Source: Oscillospiraceae bacterium (GTDB taxonomy: Bacteria > Bacillota > Clostridia > Oscillospirales > Ruminococcaceae). Taken from it: DNA of 15,436 bases. Below the pieces are notes generated by a model. That model saw only the letters and a list, made by a program, of their open reading frames with translations. It was not told the origin of the DNA and ran no database searches. A program made the position numbers and the translations under genes. The stretch covers positions 1-15,436 of the forward strand of contig JAITVF010000046.1 of the NCBI GenBank assembly GCA_031285945.1. Direction: 5' to 3'. Below, one piece after another: positions 9,365-15,436 of the stretch. How positions within the stretch are numbered: position 1 is the first letter of the stretch; each line of letters starts with the position of its first letter.

Positions 9365-9874
9365 ATGATTAAACGCGCCATATTTGTGTTTTTGATCGCT
9401 GCGCTCATTCTACTGGCCGGGTGCGCCGGGGGCTCGGGCGGAGGATTCTCGGAGAAGGATTTTTACCTGAGCATCGCGGGCGCCGACTACCGGTGCGGCG
9501 AAGGGATCGACCGCGCGGTCGAGGGGCTGGGCCCCGAATACGGCTACGCCGAGGGGCTTTCGTGCGCTTACGACAGCGTGGATAAAACCTATAGCTTTGA
9601 TTCCGCCACTTTTTACACAAACCCCATGCCGGATGGCGACCTGATAAGCGAAATCTACTCGCAAAGCCCCGAGGCCAAAACCTCGGGGGGGATTTCGCCG
9701 GGAGCCTCTAAAGAAGAGGTTCTCGCGGCCCACGGAGAAGGGGCGGACGATCTGGGCAATCTTATTGTCTACCGCGTCCCTGACAGGGAAGGCGCGCGTG
9801 GCAGAGGCTCCCTCTGCTTCGAGATAGAAAACGATCTGGTTATCGCAATTTTTATAACAACAGAACCCATGTAG
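9365..9874 (+). CDS. Small lipoprotein of unknown function preceding dltA
   Basis: This is a 169-residue protein with an N-terminal signal peptide and lipobox LLAGC (Cys 20), and a Gly/Ser spacer. I cannot assign a family. A segment near residues 110-125 (ISPGASKEEVLAAHGEG) has the GxxxxEVxxxxG form found in BamE/SmpA-like and other small alpha-beta lipoproteins; this is a weak resemblance. The ATG has GGAGG seven bases upstream. The dltA ribosome site AGGAG overlaps its stop codon, and dltA starts 11 bp later. This argues that it is the cotranscribed gene just before dltA and may act in envelope D-alanylation or its sensing, which is inference from position. Confidence 0.8.
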   Translation: MIKRAIFVFLIAALILLAGCAGGSGGGFSEKDFYLSIAGADYRCGEGIDRAVEGLGPEYGYAEGLSCAYDSVDKTYSFDSATFYTNPMPDGDLISEIYSQSPEAKTSGGISPGASKEEVLAAHGEGADDLGNLIVYRVPDREGARGRGSLCFEIENDLVIAIFITTEPM

Positions 9875-9885
9875 GAGCAAACGCG

Positions 9886-11409
9886 ATGTTTATACTTGAC
9901 AGGATAGCGCAGCTTAAAAAAACCGACAGAATCGCGCTTATAAACAGGGAAGAGCGCCTGAGCTACGCCGGGCTCGACGAAAGGTCCGAGGCCTTCGCGG
10001 CCTGGCTGCTTAAAAATCCGGAGGGAGCCCGCGGCCCCGTGGTAATCTGCGGCGGGAAGGAGACCGACTTCCTCCCCTGCGTTTTTGGCGCGCTTAAGGC
10101 GGGGCTCCCCTATGTGCCGGTGGACGCTGTGAATCCCCCGGAGCGTATAAGGGAGATTATCTCGGACGCGGGCTCGGGCGTTACTGTGGATTTTTCGGGG
10201 CTTCTTTCGGGAGACTGTGACGTTATCTCCCCAGGAGAGCTTTCGGATATACTGCAAAGCCCCCCCGTCGCGGACGTTCCGCCCGGGCTGCGCGTTTCGG
10301 GTGAGGATATAGCGTGCATCCTCTTTACCTCGGGGAGCATGGGCAGACCCAGGGGGGTTCCCGTCAGCGCCGACAATCTCATGAGCTTTGCGGGGGGGTT
10401 CTCTCCCTTATTGGGTGAGGGGGATGGCGGCGTCATTTTAAACCAGGTCTCTTACGCATTCGACGTTTCGGGCTGCTCGCTTTACGGCGGCATATCACGG
10501 GGGATGACCCTTTTTACCGTAGACCGCGAGATGGTCGCAAATCCCGGAGTGCTCTTCCACTGGCTGGCCCGTTCGGGGCTCACCGCCTGGGTATCCACCC
10601 CATCATTCGCGGAAATCTGCATGAGCGCCGATACCTTCCGCCAGCCCCTGCTGCCTTTACTCGAACGCTTTATTTTTTGCGGCGAGGTTTTAACTCACAG
10701 CCTCTGCGACCAGCTGGCCGCGAGATTCCCTAACGCTCAGGTCATAAACACCTACGGGCCCACCGAGGCGACCGTTCTTGTAACCGAGGTTACCGTTACC
10801 CAGGAAATGCGGGACGACTCCCGGCCTATACCCATAGGCCACCCCACTAAGGGAACTCAGCTCCGCGTGGCGGAGGAGGGAAGCCTCGTGCCCCTTGAGG
10901 ACGGGTGCCAGGGCGAGCTGCTTATCCTGGGCGGGAACGTTGCTCCCGGCTATTACCGCCAGCCCGGGCTCACCGCGGAGCGCTTCTTCCACGACCAAGC
11001 CACAGGCCTCAGGGGCTACCGCACCGGGGATATATGCTGCCGCGAAAATGGCCTCTTCTACTTCCTGGGCCGGGCCGACAGCCAGATTAAGCTTGGCGGG
11101 TACCGGATCGAGCTCGAGGATATCGAGCATAATCTCGCTCTGGTAAAAAATGTTTCCAGGGCGGCCGTTATCCCCGTTGTAGAAAAGGGGAAGGCGCGGT
11201 ATCTGGTGGCCTTTATCCTGCTTGAGGAGGAAGACGGCCTCTCCCCCCTTACGCGCGCCATCAGCATAAAAAAGCAGGCGGCGGAATTTTTGCCCGCATA
11301 CATGATCCCCCGCAAGATAATCGCGATTGATTCCTTCCCCTTAGGCGTGAGCGGCAAGACCGACAAAAAATCCCTCGCCGCCCTTCTCGATAAGGGCTCC
11401 GCGCCATGA
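9886..11409 (+). CDS. dltA: D-alanine--carrier protein ligase DltA
   Basis: A cytosolic ANL-superfamily adenylating enzyme of 507 residues, matching the usual DltA size. It activates D-alanine with ATP and loads it on the phosphopantetheine arm of DltC. Motifs in order are ILFTSGSMGRPRGV (about 145-158; the P-loop-like A3 motif, with Met for the usual Thr and Arg for Lys), FCGEVL (about 264-269; this Cys is typical of DltA), NTYGPTEAT (288-296), YRTGD (378-382), GGYRIELEDIE (404-414) and SGKTDKKSL (489-497) with the catalytic A10 Lys 491. The ATG has AGGAG eight bases upstream. Its stop overlaps the dltB start as ATGA. D-alanine as substrate is inferred from DltB, DltC and DltD next to it. 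Confidence 0.93.
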   Translation: MFILDRIAQLKKTDRIALINREERLSYAGLDERSEAFAAWLLKNPEGARGPVVICGGKETDFLPCVFGALKAGLPYVPVDAVNPPERIREIISDAGSGVTVDFSGLLSGDCDVISPGELSDILQSPPVADVPPGLRVSGEDIACILFTSGSMGRPRGVPVSADNLMSFAGGFSPLLGEGDGGVILNQVSYAFDVSGCSLYGGISRGMTLFTVDREMVANPGVLFHWLARSGLTAWVSTPSFAEICMSADTFRQPLLPLLERFIFCGEVLTHSLCDQLAARFPNAQVINTYGPTEATVLVTEVTVTQEMRDDSRPIPIGHPTKGTQLRVAEEGSLVPLEDGCQGELLILGGNVAPGYYRQPGLTAERFFHDQATGLRGYRTGDICCRENGLFYFLGRADSQIKLGGYRIELEDIEHNLALVKNVSRAAVIPVVEKGKARYLVAFILLEEEDGLSPLTRAISIKKQAAEFLPAYMIPRKIIAIDSFPLGVSGKTDKKSLAALLDKGSAP

Positions 11410-12539
11410 CGCCGTTTTCGGGGCTTTTGTTTTTCTACCTCCTAGGGCTTCTTCTCCTCCCCGCCGTCGTCTTGGGGCTTCTTGAGAAACCCTTAAAGCA
11501 CTACGGGCTGCTATTTACGGTTGTTATGCTCGCAATTGTTTTTGGAATAAACGGACAGCTCCACCTGCTTATCGTATTTTACCTGTGGCAGGCAGGGCTT
11601 TGCCTTATATGTTCCCGGCTCAAAAGCCCTTCGCGGGCGTTATCCGCTCTTGCCGTTCTATTGTCGCTGCTGCCTCTTATTTTAATCCGGCTCGCCGTTT
11701 TTTTTCCTTCGCTCGGTATGTTCGGGCTTATGGGGGTGAGCTATATGACCTTTCGCGCCTTACAGATCATTCTGGAGGCCCGGTCAGGCAGGCTCAGGCG
11801 CATTCCGATTTTTACTTTGAGCTATTTTTTGCTGTTCTTCCCCGCCGTAAGCTCGGGGCCTATCGACCGCTACCGGCGCTTTGAGGACGATATTTCCGCT
11901 TTTCTCAACCAGGAAGAATACCTGCGGCTTTTGCGCCGCGGGGTTTTTAAGCTCATGTGGGGCGCTTTTTTCGCTCTGGGGCTCAGCACCCTCTTGTGGA
12001 ACCTGTGGCTTTCGCCCTTGCCGGATAAAGGTTTTTTGCCCGCTGTCTCTTACATGTACGGCTATACTTTTTACCTTTTTTTTAACTTTTCGGGGTACAG
12101 CTCAATGGCGATCGGGGCTTCGTATATCTTGGGGGTAAGGCTGCCCGAAAATTTTAACATGCCCTTTTTGAGCCTTGATATTAAGGACTTTTGGTCGCGG
12201 TGGCACATGAGCCTTTCAGCCTTTTTGCGCGACTATGTCTACACCCGCTTTGTTCGCTCCTGCCTTAAAAATAAGCGCTTCAAAAATCCCAGAACGGCCT
12301 CGTACGCGGGTTATTTCATCAACATGGCTATAATGGGCGGATGGCATGGCTTTACCCTGAGGTATCTTATATACGGGCTCTATCACGGCCTGCTTGTATC
12401 GGCCAACGAGGCGCTCGAACGTGGCTGGAAGGGCTTTCGCCCCTTTCGCCAAAAGTGGTGGGGGCAGGTAATAATGGCGCTCGCAACCTTTCACCTCGTA
12501 AGCCTCGGGCTGCTGATTTTTTCGGGCAGGCTTATCTGA
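11406..12539 (+). CDS. dltB: MBOAT-family D-alanyl transfer protein DltB
   Basis: This 377-residue polytopic membrane protein is a membrane-bound O-acyltransferase that takes D-alanine from DltC at the inner face and passes it through the membrane. The MBOAT signature is clear: FWSRWHMSLSAFLRDY (about 262-277) and GGWHGFTLRYLIYGLYHG (about 311-328). The two histidines, 267 and 314, are 47 residues apart, the same spacing as the two key His of characterised DltB proteins, and His 314 is the expected catalytic one. SGPIDRYRRFE (150-160) is also typical. The start overlaps the dltA stop by 4 bp (ATGA), giving translational coupling. dltC follows after 23 bp. Confidence 0.93.
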   Translation: MTPFSGLLFFYLLGLLLLPAVVLGLLEKPLKHYGLLFTVVMLAIVFGINGQLHLLIVFYLWQAGLCLICSRLKSPSRALSALAVLLSLLPLILIRLAVFFPSLGMFGLMGVSYMTFRALQIILEARSGRLRRIPIFTLSYFLLFFPAVSSGPIDRYRRFEDDISAFLNQEEYLRLLRRGVFKLMWGAFFALGLSTLLWNLWLSPLPDKGFLPAVSYMYGYTFYLFFNFSGYSSMAIGASYILGVRLPENFNMPFLSLDIKDFWSRWHMSLSAFLRDYVYTRFVRSCLKNKRFKNPRTASYAGYFINMAIMGGWHGFTLRYLIYGLYHGLLVSANEALERGWKGFRPFRQKWWGQVIMALATFHLVSLGLLIFSGRLI

Positions 12540-12562
12540 CGCCGCTATACGGGAGGACAATT

Positions 12563-12805
12563 ATGAAAATAGAAAACGAAATCATGGCCATATTAAATGA
12601 ACTCACCGGCGCGGAAGCCGGCGAGCTCGAGCCCGCACTCGATCTTTTTGAAACCGGGCTTTTGGATTCCTTTGGAGTAGTTTCGCTCTTTGTGGAAATT
12701 GAGGAGCGCCTGGGCGTATCGGTGGCGGCCGAAACCATTTTGCGCGACGAAATTTCCACGCCGGAAAAAATTGTCCGGCGGGTTAAAAGGGCGGCGGAAT
12801 GCTGA
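12563..12805 (+). CDS. dltC: D-alanyl carrier protein DltC
   Basis: An 80-residue acyl-carrier-type four-helix protein. Ser 36 in FETGLLDSFG is the 4'-phosphopantetheine attachment site; the DSF form is normal for DltC. The size fits the family (about 78-80). It is charged by DltA and hands D-alanine to DltB. The ATG at 12563 with GGGAGGA just upstream sets the start; a longer in-frame reading beginning at 12341 runs through dltB in another frame and is not credible. Its last codons overlap the dltD start by 7 bp. Confidence 0.93.
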   Translation: MKIENEIMAILNELTGAEAGELEPALDLFETGLLDSFGVVSLFVEIEERLGVSVAAETILRDEISTPEKIVRRVKRAAEC

Positions 12806-14001
12806 GGCGCTTTTTTATTGGCGCCGCCGCTCTTGTAATATTAAGCTCAGTTCTTTTGCGGGGGGTATATTTATATCTTTCTTATTCCATGCCTCCCTAC
12901 CGCGGCTCGGTGGGGAGTGAGAACCACAATCAGAAGATTACCGGCCTCTATCTAGTAAAGGAATCGGCCAAAAGGGAAAACAGCCTTATTATTTACGGCT
13001 CGAGCGAGCTGCGCACCTTAGAGATTTCCACACATCCGGCCAACTTTTTTAAGGGGGGGCGCAGCGGCTTTCAGGTAAATCTGGTGGGCAGAGGCTCCTG
13101 CCAGGCCCTGATTCACGCAATTTCGATCGCGGCCTCGGGCGATTCGCTGACCGGCAAAAGGGTCGCTCTTATAACCTCCCCCCAGTCCTACGCCGAAGAA
13201 GGAATAGCTCCCGACATGTTTATGGCCAATTTTTCCCCTCAGCAATATCTTGAGCTTATTGCGGCGGAGGATATCCCGGCCGAGATGAAGGAATATATCT
13301 CGGCGCGGGTAGAGACCCTGTTTTTCCGCTACGAAAATATGGCGGGCGTATCCCCGCCCGACCCGGCCATTAAAGCGCTTGCCTCCCACGCGGCGTCCCC
13401 CACGCCGCTGAGCTCGGCGCTGGACGTTATCCTGACCCCTTACTACGCGCTGAGCCGCGGGCTTTTTGACATGAAGGACCTCACCCTTTCGGCAAGGATT
13501 ATTAAATCGGCCGAGGAAGACGCGCCGCGGCAGCCTCCGGAGGAAATAGACTGGGCCGCCGAGGAAGAAACGGCGATTCGGGAGGCGGAGGCGATGACCT
13601 CCAGCAACGGGTTTGGCATCCTTGACGGCTATTATGCCGCTAATATAGGCGAAAGGCTTTCGCGCCTTGAAAACCGGGATAAGAATCTGAGCTATTCGGT
13701 CTCTGAGGAATACGGCGACCTGCGGCTTCTATTTGAGGTTTGCCGAGAAAAGGGAATAGAGCCGCTTTTTATACACGTGCCCTTGCACGGCGCCTGGAGC
13801 GACTACACAGGCTTTTTAACCGAGCGGCGGGAGGAATACTACCGAAACGTTAACGAGATCGCCAAGGAATACGGTATCGAAGTTTTGGACCTGACCGGGC
13901 GCGAGTACGATGAATACTTCCTCTGCGACGTTATGCATCTTGGCTGGAGGGGGTGGCTTGAGGTTGATCGCGCGCTTATCGAATATTATTACGGCGGTTA
14001 A
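12799..14001 (+). CDS. dltD: D-alanyl transferase DltD
   Basis: This 400-residue protein has one N-terminal membrane helix (about 5-28) and an extracellular SGNH-like esterase domain. The catalytic elements are Ser in IYGSSEL (68/69) near the start, and Asp 377 with His 380 in CDVMHLGWRGW near the end. The D-x-x-H spacing is that of known DltD. It is thought to finish transfer of D-alanine onto teichoic acid outside the membrane. The ATG overlaps dltC by 7 bp. The 3' end is also used by a second reading frame: a dltX-like gene probably starts inside its last 44 bases. Confidence 0.92.
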   Translation: MLRRFFIGAAALVILSSVLLRGVYLYLSYSMPPYRGSVGSENHNQKITGLYLVKESAKRENSLIIYGSSELRTLEISTHPANFFKGGRSGFQVNLVGRGSCQALIHAISIAASGDSLTGKRVALITSPQSYAEEGIAPDMFMANFSPQQYLELIAAEDIPAEMKEYISARVETLFFRYENMAGVSPPDPAIKALASHAASPTPLSSALDVILTPYYALSRGLFDMKDLTLSARIIKSAEEDAPRQPPEEIDWAAEEETAIREAEAMTSSNGFGILDGYYAANIGERLSRLENRDKNLSYSVSEEYGDLRLLFEVCREKGIEPLFIHVPLHGAWSDYTGFLTERREEYYRNVNEIAKEYGIEVLDLTGREYDEYFLCDVMHLGWRGWLEVDRALIEYYYGG

Positions 14002-14125
14002 GAAGTTTGTTTTTGGCGGGGCTTTGCCGCGTATGTGCTGCTATATCATAATTCTGCTCTTTTTGCTGGCGCTTTGGCTTCTTACAGAGCAAGCCGATAT
14101 TCCTTTTGTTTATAACGAGTTTTAA
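13958..14125 (+). CDS. dltX: DltX-like microprotein (C-terminal FVYNEF) at the end of the dlt operon
   Basis: The frame ending at 14125 encodes a basic N-terminal stretch (VKKF... ALPR), one membrane segment (MCCYIIILLFLLALWLL) and the terminus ADIPFVYNEF. A single-pass peptide of about 50 residues ending in F-[IVL]-Y-N-E-F is the DltX signature; its C-terminal Tyr motif is needed for D-alanylation and is thought to carry the alanyl group between DltB and DltD. The best start is the TTG at 13958, with GGAGG (13946-13950) seven bases upstream. This gives 55 residues and a 44-bp overlap with dltD. An ATG at 14033 would leave only 30 residues, and an ATG at 13910 has no ribosome site. In Bacilli dltX usually precedes dltA, so this position is unusual. 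The gene is firm, the exact start less so. Confidence 0.8.
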   Translation: MRLIARLSNIITAVKKFVFGGALPRMCCYIIILLFLLALWLLTEQADIPFVYNEF

Positions 14126-14177
14126 CGCCGCTCATATCTTTTAATTCTTTCAACATTGCGCCTATTCTCTCTGCATT
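14126..14177 (-). pseudogene. Possible short coding remnant between dltX and the MITE
   Basis: On the minus strand these bases read NAERIGAMLKELKDMSGV, a plausible amphipathic helix, entering directly from the MITE end. There is no start or complete domain. It could be the tail of a gene cut by the element, or chance. Confidence 0.2.
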
Positions 14178-14341
14178 AGGGCTTGTTTGATAAATGTTCC
14201 AGTTCGTGCTTTTGCCTAAAATTTTGGTAGATTTTATGTGAGGAGGACGCCGCTTGGCCGACGCCAAGCAAGGACGACGAGCAGGTAAGCCGCAAAATTT
14301 GGCAAAATGACGAACATGGGTTATTCATCAAACAAACCCTA
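14177..14341. mobile_element. MITE-like element with about 40-bp terminal inverted repeats
   Basis: The left end, AGGGCTTGTTTGATAAAT followed by GTTCGTG and TTTTGCC, is matched by the complement of the right end, AGGGTTTGTTTGATGAAT then GTTCGTC and TTTTGCC. A TA lies on each side of GGG...CCC (14177-14178 and 14340-14341), which could be a TA target duplication as made by IS630/mariner-type transposases. The centre has no transposase but carries a 7-bp hairpin, GCTTGGC-CGAC-GCCAAGC (about 14251-14268). The right end overlaps the stop codon of the isochorismatase-like gene. Confidence 0.8.
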
Positions 14342-14830
14342 ACCTAACAGGCCATTCAAATCAATAACCTTGCTGCCTTTACTTTCATAATAGCGCAGCA
14401 TTTCGGGCAGCTTCTTCTTGTCGTAACTGGTAATGCAATCGGACAGGACGGTAACGCCATAATCTGCTTTGCGTAAGTTGAAGCAGGTTGATTTAACACA
14501 GGCGGCGGCGTCCGCTCCCTCTATATAGAAATCGCCTATCTCGTTTTTGCTGATAAAGTCCGCAAATTCCTCGCTGGTTAACGCGCTACCTTTGAATTTT
14601 GTGAAAACATTTTGCGATACGATTTTCAAATCTGGCGCCAATTCAGCCCCGTGTGTACCCGGCTTAAAAGTTCTAGTGCCTGCTGATAAATTTTCATGCC
14701 GTATATAAACAACGTGGATATCGCCGGCAACAGCCCATTCAATCGCTTTATTGATATTGCCGATAATCTCCTTGTAATTCTTTGTAATGTCATTTTGAAT
14801 ATCAATCACGACTAAGGCTTTTTTCTGCAT
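14339..14830 (-). CDS. Isochorismatase-fold cysteine hydrolase
   Basis: A 163-residue cytosolic protein of the isochorismatase/nicotinamidase superfamily, which hydrolyses amide or ether bonds with an Asp-Lys-Cys triad. The N-terminal VVIDIQND holds the Asp (about residue 10), VFTKFKGSAL holds the Lys (about 76-78), and GADAAACVKSTC holds the nucleophile Cys (about 109). The substrate is not predictable. The ATG at 14830 with GAGGAGG eight bases upstream sets the start; the open frame continues 37 codons further up without support. The base composition is visibly more AT-rich than the dlt genes, with many AAA, AAT and ATT codons. It lies between a MITE and a palindromic repeat, so recent acquisition is likely. 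Its TAG stop lies in the MITE terminal repeat. Confidence 0.9.
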   Translation of the reverse strand: MQKKALVVIDIQNDITKNYKEIIGNINKAIEWAVAGDIHVVYIRHENLSAGTRTFKPGTHGAELAPDLKIVSQNVFTKFKGSALTSEEFADFISKNEIGDFYIEGADAAACVKSTCFNLRKADYGVTVLSDCITSYDKKKLPEMLRYYESKGSKVIDLNGLLG

Positions 14831-14880
14831 GATGTTTCCTCCTCGATTTTGAGCTTCTATATCCAACATCATAGCGCATG

Positions 14881-14906
14881 AAACAAGACAACAGTATGTC
14901 TTGTTT
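14881..14906. promoter_or_regulatory. Perfect 10-bp inverted repeat upstream of the hydrolase gene, candidate operator
   Basis: AAACAAGACA (14881-14890) and TGTCTTGTTT (14897-14906) with a six-base spacer. It lies 50-75 bp upstream of the ATG; a TATGAT -10-like box on the minus strand follows it. The size and spacing suit a dimeric TetR- or MarR-type repressor, but no regulator gene is in sight. Confidence 0.5.
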
Positions 14907-14927
14907 ATTAGACCTGTCTGAGAATTT

Positions 14928-15031
14928 ATACTAATCCGCAAATAAAACGCTTTTATAATATTACTCTATTGCTTCCCCCGCCAGAGGCGGGGGAAGCAAT
15001 AGAAAGAAGTATTTTAAATGCGCAATAGCAT
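14928..15031 (+). repeat. 104-bp palindromic intergenic repeat, copy 2
   Basis: Same orientation and same length as copy 1 (3976-4079), about 91 percent identical by eye. The central hairpin (14966-14982 with 14986-15002, loop AGA) is perfect here over 17 bp. Relative to copy 1, the pair A4019-T4045 is replaced by G-C, and the mismatch at 4029/4035 is repaired. Confidence 0.85.
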
Positions 15032-15043
15032 AAGAAGCTGCAA

Positions 15044-15208
15044 ATAGAGCAATGCGCCAAAATAACCGGAAATTCGATGCCGTATGGCGCGCATTGCTCT
15101 ATCGGCCATATCCGGCGGTTGCCACCCGCAGGTGGCGAGCCGGATGGCCATGCTCGCTATAGCAATTGTAGATAAGACCTTTTCCGCTCATTTCTTACAA
15201 TTGCTATA
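15044..15208 (+). repeat. Second intergenic hairpin family, long copy with three consecutive hairpins
   Basis: Hairpin a: ATAGAGCAATGCG (15044-15056) pairs with 15090-15102. Hairpin b: GGCCAT..CCGGC (15104-15116) pairs with GCCGGATGGCC (15139-15149), enclosing GCCACC-CGCA-GGTGGC (15121-15136). Hairpin c: TATAGCAATTGTA (15158-15170) pairs with 15196-15208. The short copy at 8206-8303 keeps the outer words and hairpin c but lacks most of a and b. Confidence 0.75.
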
Positions 15209-15271
15209 ATCTATTTGTAGTATTATATTCTAATTTTAGGGGCGGTTTTATGCGTTCGCCTTGGGTAAAAC

Positions 15272-15304
15272 AATGGGAAGCAGGGCAACTCCCCGCTTCC
15301 CATT
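15272..15304 (-). terminator. Probable terminator of a minus-strand gene entering from the right
   Basis: A perfect 10-bp stem, AATGGGAAGC (15272-15281) with GCTTCCCATT (15295-15304), extended by GGG/CCC inside. On the minus strand the stem is followed by GTTTTA. Nothing on the plus strand nearby needs a terminator. The stretch 15209-15271 holds no gene that I can see. Confidence 0.55.
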
Positions 15305-15306
15305 CT

Positions 15307-15436
15307 TTATAATACATCTGTGATTATGGTAATCTCTAAGCTCCGCCCCGTCTGGCCGTTCAGCAGTGCGTTGCAATCGCCTGAAATCAAAATTTACTCA
15401 ATAAGTGGCCAGGGTTCCGTACCCGGCGGTTTCGTA
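15307..15436 (-). pseudogene. Possible 3' end of a minus-strand gene, frame interrupted
   Basis: A minus-strand frame ends at 15307, two bases before the terminator stem, with a protein-like tail (GDCNALLNGQTGRSLEITII). It is preceded in the same frame by a TAA at 15394-15396, and the other two frames also stop nearby. It could be a decayed gene, a frameshift, or chance; only 130 bases are visible and no family is recognised. Confidence 0.2.

Follow-up and report, generated by a model that had tools for sequence, protein, structure and literature searches.

A short gene overlapping the end of dltD very probably encodes the DltX acyl shuttle of an Oscillospiraceae dlt operon

We are highly confident that positions 13964-14125 of the Oscillospiraceae DNA analysed here (the window, 15,436 nucleotides at full length) constitute a real DltX gene, the last of an operon with the order A-B-C-D-X, whose product would act as a single-helix carrier by the acyl-shuttle mechanism. 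A preliminary description, made from the letters alone, had pointed to a frame behind dltD that encodes a single-pass peptide ending FVYNEF and had read it as a dltX-like gene at the 3' end of the operon. Both the frame and the order, dltA to dltD and then X, hold up. The established genes of the operon are as follows.

9886..11409, + strand: dltA, D-alanine:carrier ligase, overlapping dltB by 4 nt (best families NF003417 and TIGR01734)
11406..12539, + strand: dltB, MBOAT acyltransferase without a fused shuttle tail (TIGR04091, 414.9 bits, cut-off 375)
12563..12805, + strand: dltC, D-alanyl carrier protein, overlapping the start of dltD (TIGR01688, 57.6 bits, cut-off 52.35)
12799..14001, + strand: dltD, SGNH-type D-alanyl transferase of 400 aa (TIGR04092, 295.9 bits, cut-off 150; PF04914, 294 bits)

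All four lie on the + strand and overlap or almost do so. The dltA product scores under the cut-offs of its best families (NF003417, 430.2 bits, cut-off 476; TIGR01734, 417.7 bits, cut-off 559.85), and the TIGR01688 match covers residues 79-149 of a longer dltC frame. Promoter and terminator scans of 9600-15436 returned counts near shuffle level (6 vs 4.6; 11 vs 9.8). The features assigned to dltX itself are listed below.

13964..14125, + strand: dltX in its most likely extent, 53 aa and a stop codon from a TTG start (start conservation, codon constraint, pN/pS)
13958..14125, + strand: dltX, alternative extent of 55 aa from the TTG first proposed, which is also the start of database protein P0001
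13946..13953, + strand: GGAGGGGG, possible ribosome-binding site within dltD (sequence; over-used GGG codon)
14033..14086, + strand: predicted transmembrane helix of DltX (hydropathy peak; helix 20-40 of the AlphaFold2 model)
14105..14122, + strand: FVYNEF acyl-shuttle motif with the Tyr codon at 14111-14113 (F, Y and F kept in relatives)

The dltX frame is +1 relative to dltD and, counted from 13964, overlaps it with its first 38 nt; dltD stops at 13999-14001, dltX with TAA at 14123-14125. The encoded peptide (...LIARLSNIITAVKKFVFGGALPRMCCYIIILLFLLALWLLTEQADIPFVYNEF) has the size and helix features of DltX, namely 53 aa and one hydropathy peak. Among all window frames of at least 12 aa, it is the only one with an F-x-Y-x-x-F end, while three further matches to a looser motif pattern are frames of 16-32 aa that lack F-x-Y-x-x-F. 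An AlphaFold2 model of modest confidence (pLDDT 73.7, pTM 0.39), used for helix placement only, has helices at residues 2-17 and 20-40 followed by a loose tail. Around the helix, the charge is +4 on the N side and -3 on the C side, and the N side is the more positive one in 27/27 relatives, the row of L012 being unreliable as its helix window enters the tail. This charge distribution suggests an N terminus inside and a tail outside.

As to the start of the gene, the preliminary description had chosen the TTG at 13958 with GGAGG (13946-13950) seven bases upstream. The sequence reads as it had said, but the conserved start is the TTG at 13964: 24 of 27 relatives have TTG at the aligned codon, with ATG one codon later in two of the others and GTG two codons later in the third, vs 16 of 27 for the codon aligned to 13958, which is a stop codon in L026. 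The TTG at 13964 arises from the dltD codons GTT-GAT. The valine codon that creates it is GTT in 23/24 cases, where 3.4 would be expected from gene-wide usage, and holds rank 1 of 214 columns for constraint. For the CTT that makes TTG 13958, the corresponding values are 17/25, 4.1 expected and rank 36 of 214. Start 13964 is hence most likely, and the GTT constraint supports both this start and selection on dual coding, while additional use of 13958 would remain compatible with it. In the putative ribosome-binding stretch, a dltD glycine codon is GGG in 20/26 (6.9 expected, rank 13 of 214). Since GGAGGGGG also encodes the mostly conserved G-W-K/R-G-W of DltD, it is by itself weak evidence for ribosome binding. 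Database protein P0001 from this contig has 55 aa and starts at 13958, and 33 of the 49 protein clusters found with A2, an alignment of 25 DltX peptides, are 53 aa long. With its start inside dltD, X is probably translated in a manner coupled to DltD; in four relatives (L072, L074, L077 and L079), X begins past the dltD stop.

The dltX frame evolves like coding sequence, as judged from codon and selection tests on 27 loci (median pairwise DltD identity 0.56), left from 30 after thinning at 90% DltD identity. The set was defined without L019 and L045 (partial dltD), L011 and L027 (no dltD end), the distant L041-L044 and the class and phylum loci. In the 34 pairs with at least 70% nucleotide identity, pN/pS of the dltX frame is 0.29 vs 1.18 and 1.71 for the other + frames, which is the comparison of synonymous and non-synonymous change that had been proposed as a check. 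The minus-strand frames of the same pairs give 1.03, 0.46 and 1.56, and we read the 0.46 as an echo of shared third positions. More distant pairs show the same direction, with 0.41 vs 1.37 and 1.30 (31 pairs) and 0.63 vs 1.06 and 1.15 (286 pairs). Codon-position entropies in dltX are 1.13, 0.95 and 1.52, so that the third position is the most variable. The X frames were found with the pattern [FLIM]xYxxF, so that in these 27-locus tests the pattern itself accounts in part for the constant Y, the constant last F and the stop-free frame; the first F of the tail is nevertheless F in 27/27 relatives, although the pattern let this position vary.

The figures for presence that are less biased by the pattern are 7/7 and 34/35. 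Among 61 genomes including the own one, dltD occurs in seven, and an X frame, sought with a looser pattern, stands at 7/7 dltD ends, with the tails FVYNEF, FVYNAF, FVYSAF or FIYNNF at DltD identities to the window of 48-65%. The A2 profile matched exactly these seven genomes with E 4.2e-17 or better and none of the 54 others. Three weak matches (E 0.001-0.004) lie outside the dltD genomes; one is the C terminus of a 491-aa MBOAT frame ending DFVYFQF, and the other two are frames without the motif at their ends. The second figure comes from a scan of 37 named loci, most of whose titles read Oscillospiraceae, Anaerotruncus-like or uncultured Clostridia. X is present in 34 of them, among them L040 and L045 (titled Anaerotruncus colihominis); 33 have it directly behind dltD, and Paenibacillus tyrfis has it before dltA. 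Of the remaining three, L011 and L027 stop inside dltD, and the distant L043 (Family XIII) has no X frame in its available sequence, a contig that starts inside dltB and does not cover the region before dltA. A readable dltD end is found in 35 named loci, 34 of which carry X; the terminal-motif frame expected behind dltD in relatives thus stands there in 33/35. In 28 loci known to have X, the 40-260 nt behind the stop codon contain an F-x-Y-x-x-F frame at 27/27 scored dltD ends (one further dltD end was unrecognised by the script) vs 1/443 ends of other ORFs of at least 200 aa, and this sole match belongs to an MBOAT gene that has the motif fused to it. In most loci, the tail was found 124 nt past the dltD stop. 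In A2, the F, Y and F of the motif are the only invariant residues (25/25), at an identity to the window peptide of 19-52%. Two tails from the same phylum, YIYNDF in L097 and YIYNAF in L096, were missed by the strict pattern and placed via PF12459 matches.

That the peptide is very probably the acyl shuttle DltX of this operon is argued by the motif kept in relatives, the coding-type evolution, the co-occurrence with dltD and a DltB without a tail, all of which are evident from the sequence; of the tests applied, only that against the Pfam cut-off fell short. PF12459 (Pfam DltX) aligns over the last 27 of its 43 positions with E 0.008 and 16.1 bits, below the gathering cut-off of 25, and NCBIfam gave no match for the frame. 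This cut-off is reached by 1/23 dlt-bearing relatives inside the class vs 10/10 dlt genomes outside it, so the failure seems to be the fault of the cut-off rather than of the family. The own genome assembly, which comprises 1.56 Mb on 224 contigs at 77% completeness, was searched with PF12459 for a second, canonical DltX; the dltX frame was the only match, and its pN/pS of 0.29 gives no sign of frame decay. A profile search of solved structures found no DltX chain; its one match is an antenna complex subunit (E 0.07) whose alignment does not include the tail. The window DltB matches DltB of PDB 6BUG over residues 2-376 and ends IFSGRLI, and the shuttle motif occurs in 0/25 DltB C-termini examined, the window included. 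With such a tailless DltB, a separate X is what the Dlt machine would need. The conserved DltB histidines H267 and H314, to which a catalytic role is ascribed, are invariant in the sequences compared. Another MBOAT of this assembly, L108, does have the motif at its C terminus (NPFLYFKF), and the genome thus seems to combine a fused with a separate shuttle. In five relatives (L025, L033, L035, L037 and L038), a frame of 465-478 aa that ends with an F-I-Y-x-x-F tail also starts about 3.3-3.7 kb past the dltD stop; a Pfam check for MBOAT covered those of L033 and L025.

The shuttle mechanism was reportedly first described in a Nature Microbiology paper of 2023. According to the available part of PMC12148441, DltB moves D-Ala from DltC onto an invariant Tyr near the DltX C terminus, from where it passes to DltD; the motif is given there as FXYXXF, fused to the chain in other MBOATs. 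The accessible text of PMC5541007 reports that D-alanylation in Bacillus thuringiensis requires DltX. By extension, the single helix of the 53-aa DltX of the window would cross the membrane from an N terminus on the inside to the F-V-Y-N-E-F tail on the outside. DltA would charge DltC with D-alanine, as work on DltX and PatA elsewhere suggests, and DltB would transfer the D-alanine to the tyrosine of the DltX tail. The loaded tail could then swing over to DltD, whose serine would hand the D-alanine to a cell-envelope polymer. For this gene we infer expression, topology, acyl transfer and translational coupling from sequence features and from these precedents. With regard to the polymer, a search for LtaS-type enzymes (PF00884) gave no match in the own genome, which is 77% complete, nor in the dlt-bearing G001, G005 and G036; PF00884 proteins are present in G002, G042 and G047.

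The product resembles the DltX of Bacilli (PF12459; for B. thuringiensis see PMC5541007, as far as its available text goes) in its length of about 50 aa, its one helix, the conserved tail Tyr and its encoding together with dltABCD. It differs from this DltX in scoring below the Pfam cut-off, in its TTG start inside dltD, in its position after dltD and in a diverged N-terminal part. With fused MBOAT tails such as that of PatA (PMC12148441, in the part available), it shares the C-terminal F-x-Y-x-x-F after the last membrane helix, yet there the motif is part of the MBOAT chain, whereas here it sits on a separate peptide next to a DltB without a tail. A named precedent in position is P0043 from an Oscillospiraceae MAG (L042), which bears the DltX name and the PF12459 label and likewise follows dltD directly in an A-B-C-D-X operon; it has an ATG start, however, and is distant, its DltD being a 30% match to the query.

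Three other readings of the frame have to be weighed against a DltX gene. Conceivably, a conserved dltD could keep the overlapping frame open by chance, with hydrophobic codons downstream that mimic a membrane helix. Openness is indeed partly forced over the 38 nt inside dltD, and the Pfam score is weak; the tail, however, lies beyond dltD and recurs in 34 of the 35 named loci whose dltD end is readable, the pN/pS is 0.29, and just one of 443 other ORF ends is followed by a comparable frame. As far as sequence allows, such a chance opening is already refuted, and we regard it as extremely improbable. Alternatively, ribosomal frameshifting in the overlap might append the X sequence to DltD as a C-terminal extension, without any separate protein. 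This would agree with the +1 frame of X, with its overlap with dltD in most loci and with the C. difficile entry P0061 (partial, 83 aa, from a 292-base contig), which reads DltD straight into DltX in one frame that may stem from a sequencing slip or represent a natural variant. It is difficult to reconcile with a start codon that is kept as TTG in 24/27 relatives and as ATG or GTG 1-2 codons on in the other three, with an X that starts beyond the dltD stop in four relatives and with five loci in which X stands apart before dltA. Moreover, the DltD catalytic domain is expected outside, which would leave an X fused to it starting from the wrong membrane side. We therefore consider frameshifting very unlikely.

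The third reading retains a separate protein and assigns it another role, that of a small membrane protein of the Dlt complex that has borrowed the motif and regulates or scaffolds DltB-DltD without carrying acyl groups. The diversity outside the motif (19-52% identity to the window peptide in A2) would fit such a protein, but the only residues invariant in A2 are precisely the three of the shuttle motif (as described in the available part of PMC12148441), and no other carrier of the motif was found in the window. Hence, a purely structural or regulatory function also appears to be very improbable, although a scaffold role in addition to the shuttle would be compatible with the data. The reading as the DltX shuttle gene is thus retained in what follows.

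Beyond this locus, dltD was found in 18 of 391 genomes of a class sample and in 12 of 398 genomes of a phylum sample, two of the latter (the own genome and G061) being shared with the class set. Together with the named loci, 66 distinct loci including the window can be compared, and 63 have X, in 61 directly after D or before A. The orders among these 61 are A-B-C-D-X (31), D-X-A-B-C (11), X-A-B-C-D (5) and partial or C-first versions of the cycle (14), C-D-X-A-B also being seen. The tally omits L002-L005, L007 and L008 as duplicates of named loci and includes four A-B-D-X loci whose dltC, sought by tblastn with the window DltC, was undetected and may still be present; the orders of L094-L103 were read by eye. 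As far as can be read from these arrangements, almost every order seen can be obtained by rotating a single cycle; L070 and L071, in which X lies upstream of dltD, break it. Locus L096 (genome G567, X tail YIYNAF) has three dltD copies in the order C-D-X-A-B-D-D.

Two statements of the preliminary description on gene order need to be qualified. It had held that dltX precedes dltA in Bacilli, which may not be universal, as 6/10 genomes of the same phylum outside the class have X right after dltD. It had further proposed that dlt operons of Clostridia may carry dltX at the other end; this applies to operons of the Oscillospiraceae type, but in 11/18 class-sample loci X lies between dltD and dltA (D-X-A-B-C). 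The usual DltX site just upstream of dltA is not used here and occurs as X-A-B-C-D in 5/63 X-bearing loci; in some other loci, X is right before dltA yet also after dltD. It is quite likely, in our view, that a dlt operon without DltX may not exist. The "four-gene" operons of Clostridia, dltDABC of C. difficile among them, would then include a DltX that has gone unrecognised, either between dltD and dltA or behind dltD. Phylum-wide, there would be a single conserved cycle, A-B-C-D-X, opened at varying positions, and the link of the X start to the dltD end would ensure joint production of DltD and its shuttle.

Apparently, the same little-noticed gene stands beside dltD in many Clostridia, including Clostridioides difficile. 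The C. difficile protein P0053 (ACTPEO_09780) resembles the window peptide in its single helix and its tail FIYNGF, and it shares 98% identity with the X that L066 has at its dltD/dltA junction, from which we infer that P0053 adjoins dltD in C. difficile as well. It differs in being a "hypothetical protein" of 48 aa without a DltX label and, going by L066, in the order D-X-A-B-C. The accessible portion of a 2023 study (PMC10642750) describes the C. difficile dlt operon as four genes and a deletion "from dltD to dltC", and dltX appears 0 times in its main text. An X located between D and A would be lost in such a deletion as well, and the result therefore has no separate bearing on X.

The DltX family as such is already known, and one database entry (P0043) already names X after dltD; what is under-recognised is the position and distribution of DltX in Clostridia. 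The preliminary description had assumed that genes of this kind are usually missed, which is correct for their labels rather than for their prediction: collections of predicted proteins do hold X, and a search of them with the A2 alignment found 49 clusters, of which 3 carry the Pfam DltX label and 1 the DltX name. A single-sequence protein search returned the window's own protein only. A profile of the D-X-A-B-C type matched 105 protein clusters, with neither a DltX name nor PF12459 in the name parts listed. This suggests that searches miss DltX through the shortness of the gene, its start inside dltD and a Pfam cut-off rarely reached by members from Clostridia. In the part of PMC5541007 available, DltX is likewise placed mostly immediately upstream of dltA and described as a small ORF often missed in annotation. 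Among the matches listed from the openly licensed literature, each available in part, no description of DltX in C. difficile or after dltD was found. Only two of these matches (PMC12148441 and PMC7609970) contain both DltX and Clostridioides difficile, and in the accessible text of PMC7609970, DltX occurs in the reference list. The string dltABCDX in the available part of PMC10269926 is a gene list for Enterococcus faecium and not a gene order; it is also printed in PMC13251936 on S. aureus.

In the D-alanylation of teichoic acids, a pathway behind resistance to cationic peptides, DltX is regarded as the covalent intermediate, and operons described as DltX-free would need another mechanism. 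A DltX beside dltD in genomes of the Oscillospiraceae and Clostridium types would remove this puzzle of the missing DltX, and it provides a named candidate dltX gene for C. difficile.

Two other parts of the window deserve mention. On the 3' side of the dlt operon, a stretch free of long ORFs contains inverted repeats at 14965-15003 (18 bp, 100%), 15044-15102 (14 bp, 100%) and 15268-15308 (18 bp, 89%). Far upstream, a tRNA-SeC gene at 1660-1755 on the + strand (ARAGORN; Rfam RF01852) faces a selD-like gene with AIRS domains that extends from 1824 to about 2900 on the - strand. Upstream, the selD-like frame continues past an in-frame TGA (2817-2819, context GAGUASK), so that SelD probably contains selenocysteine.
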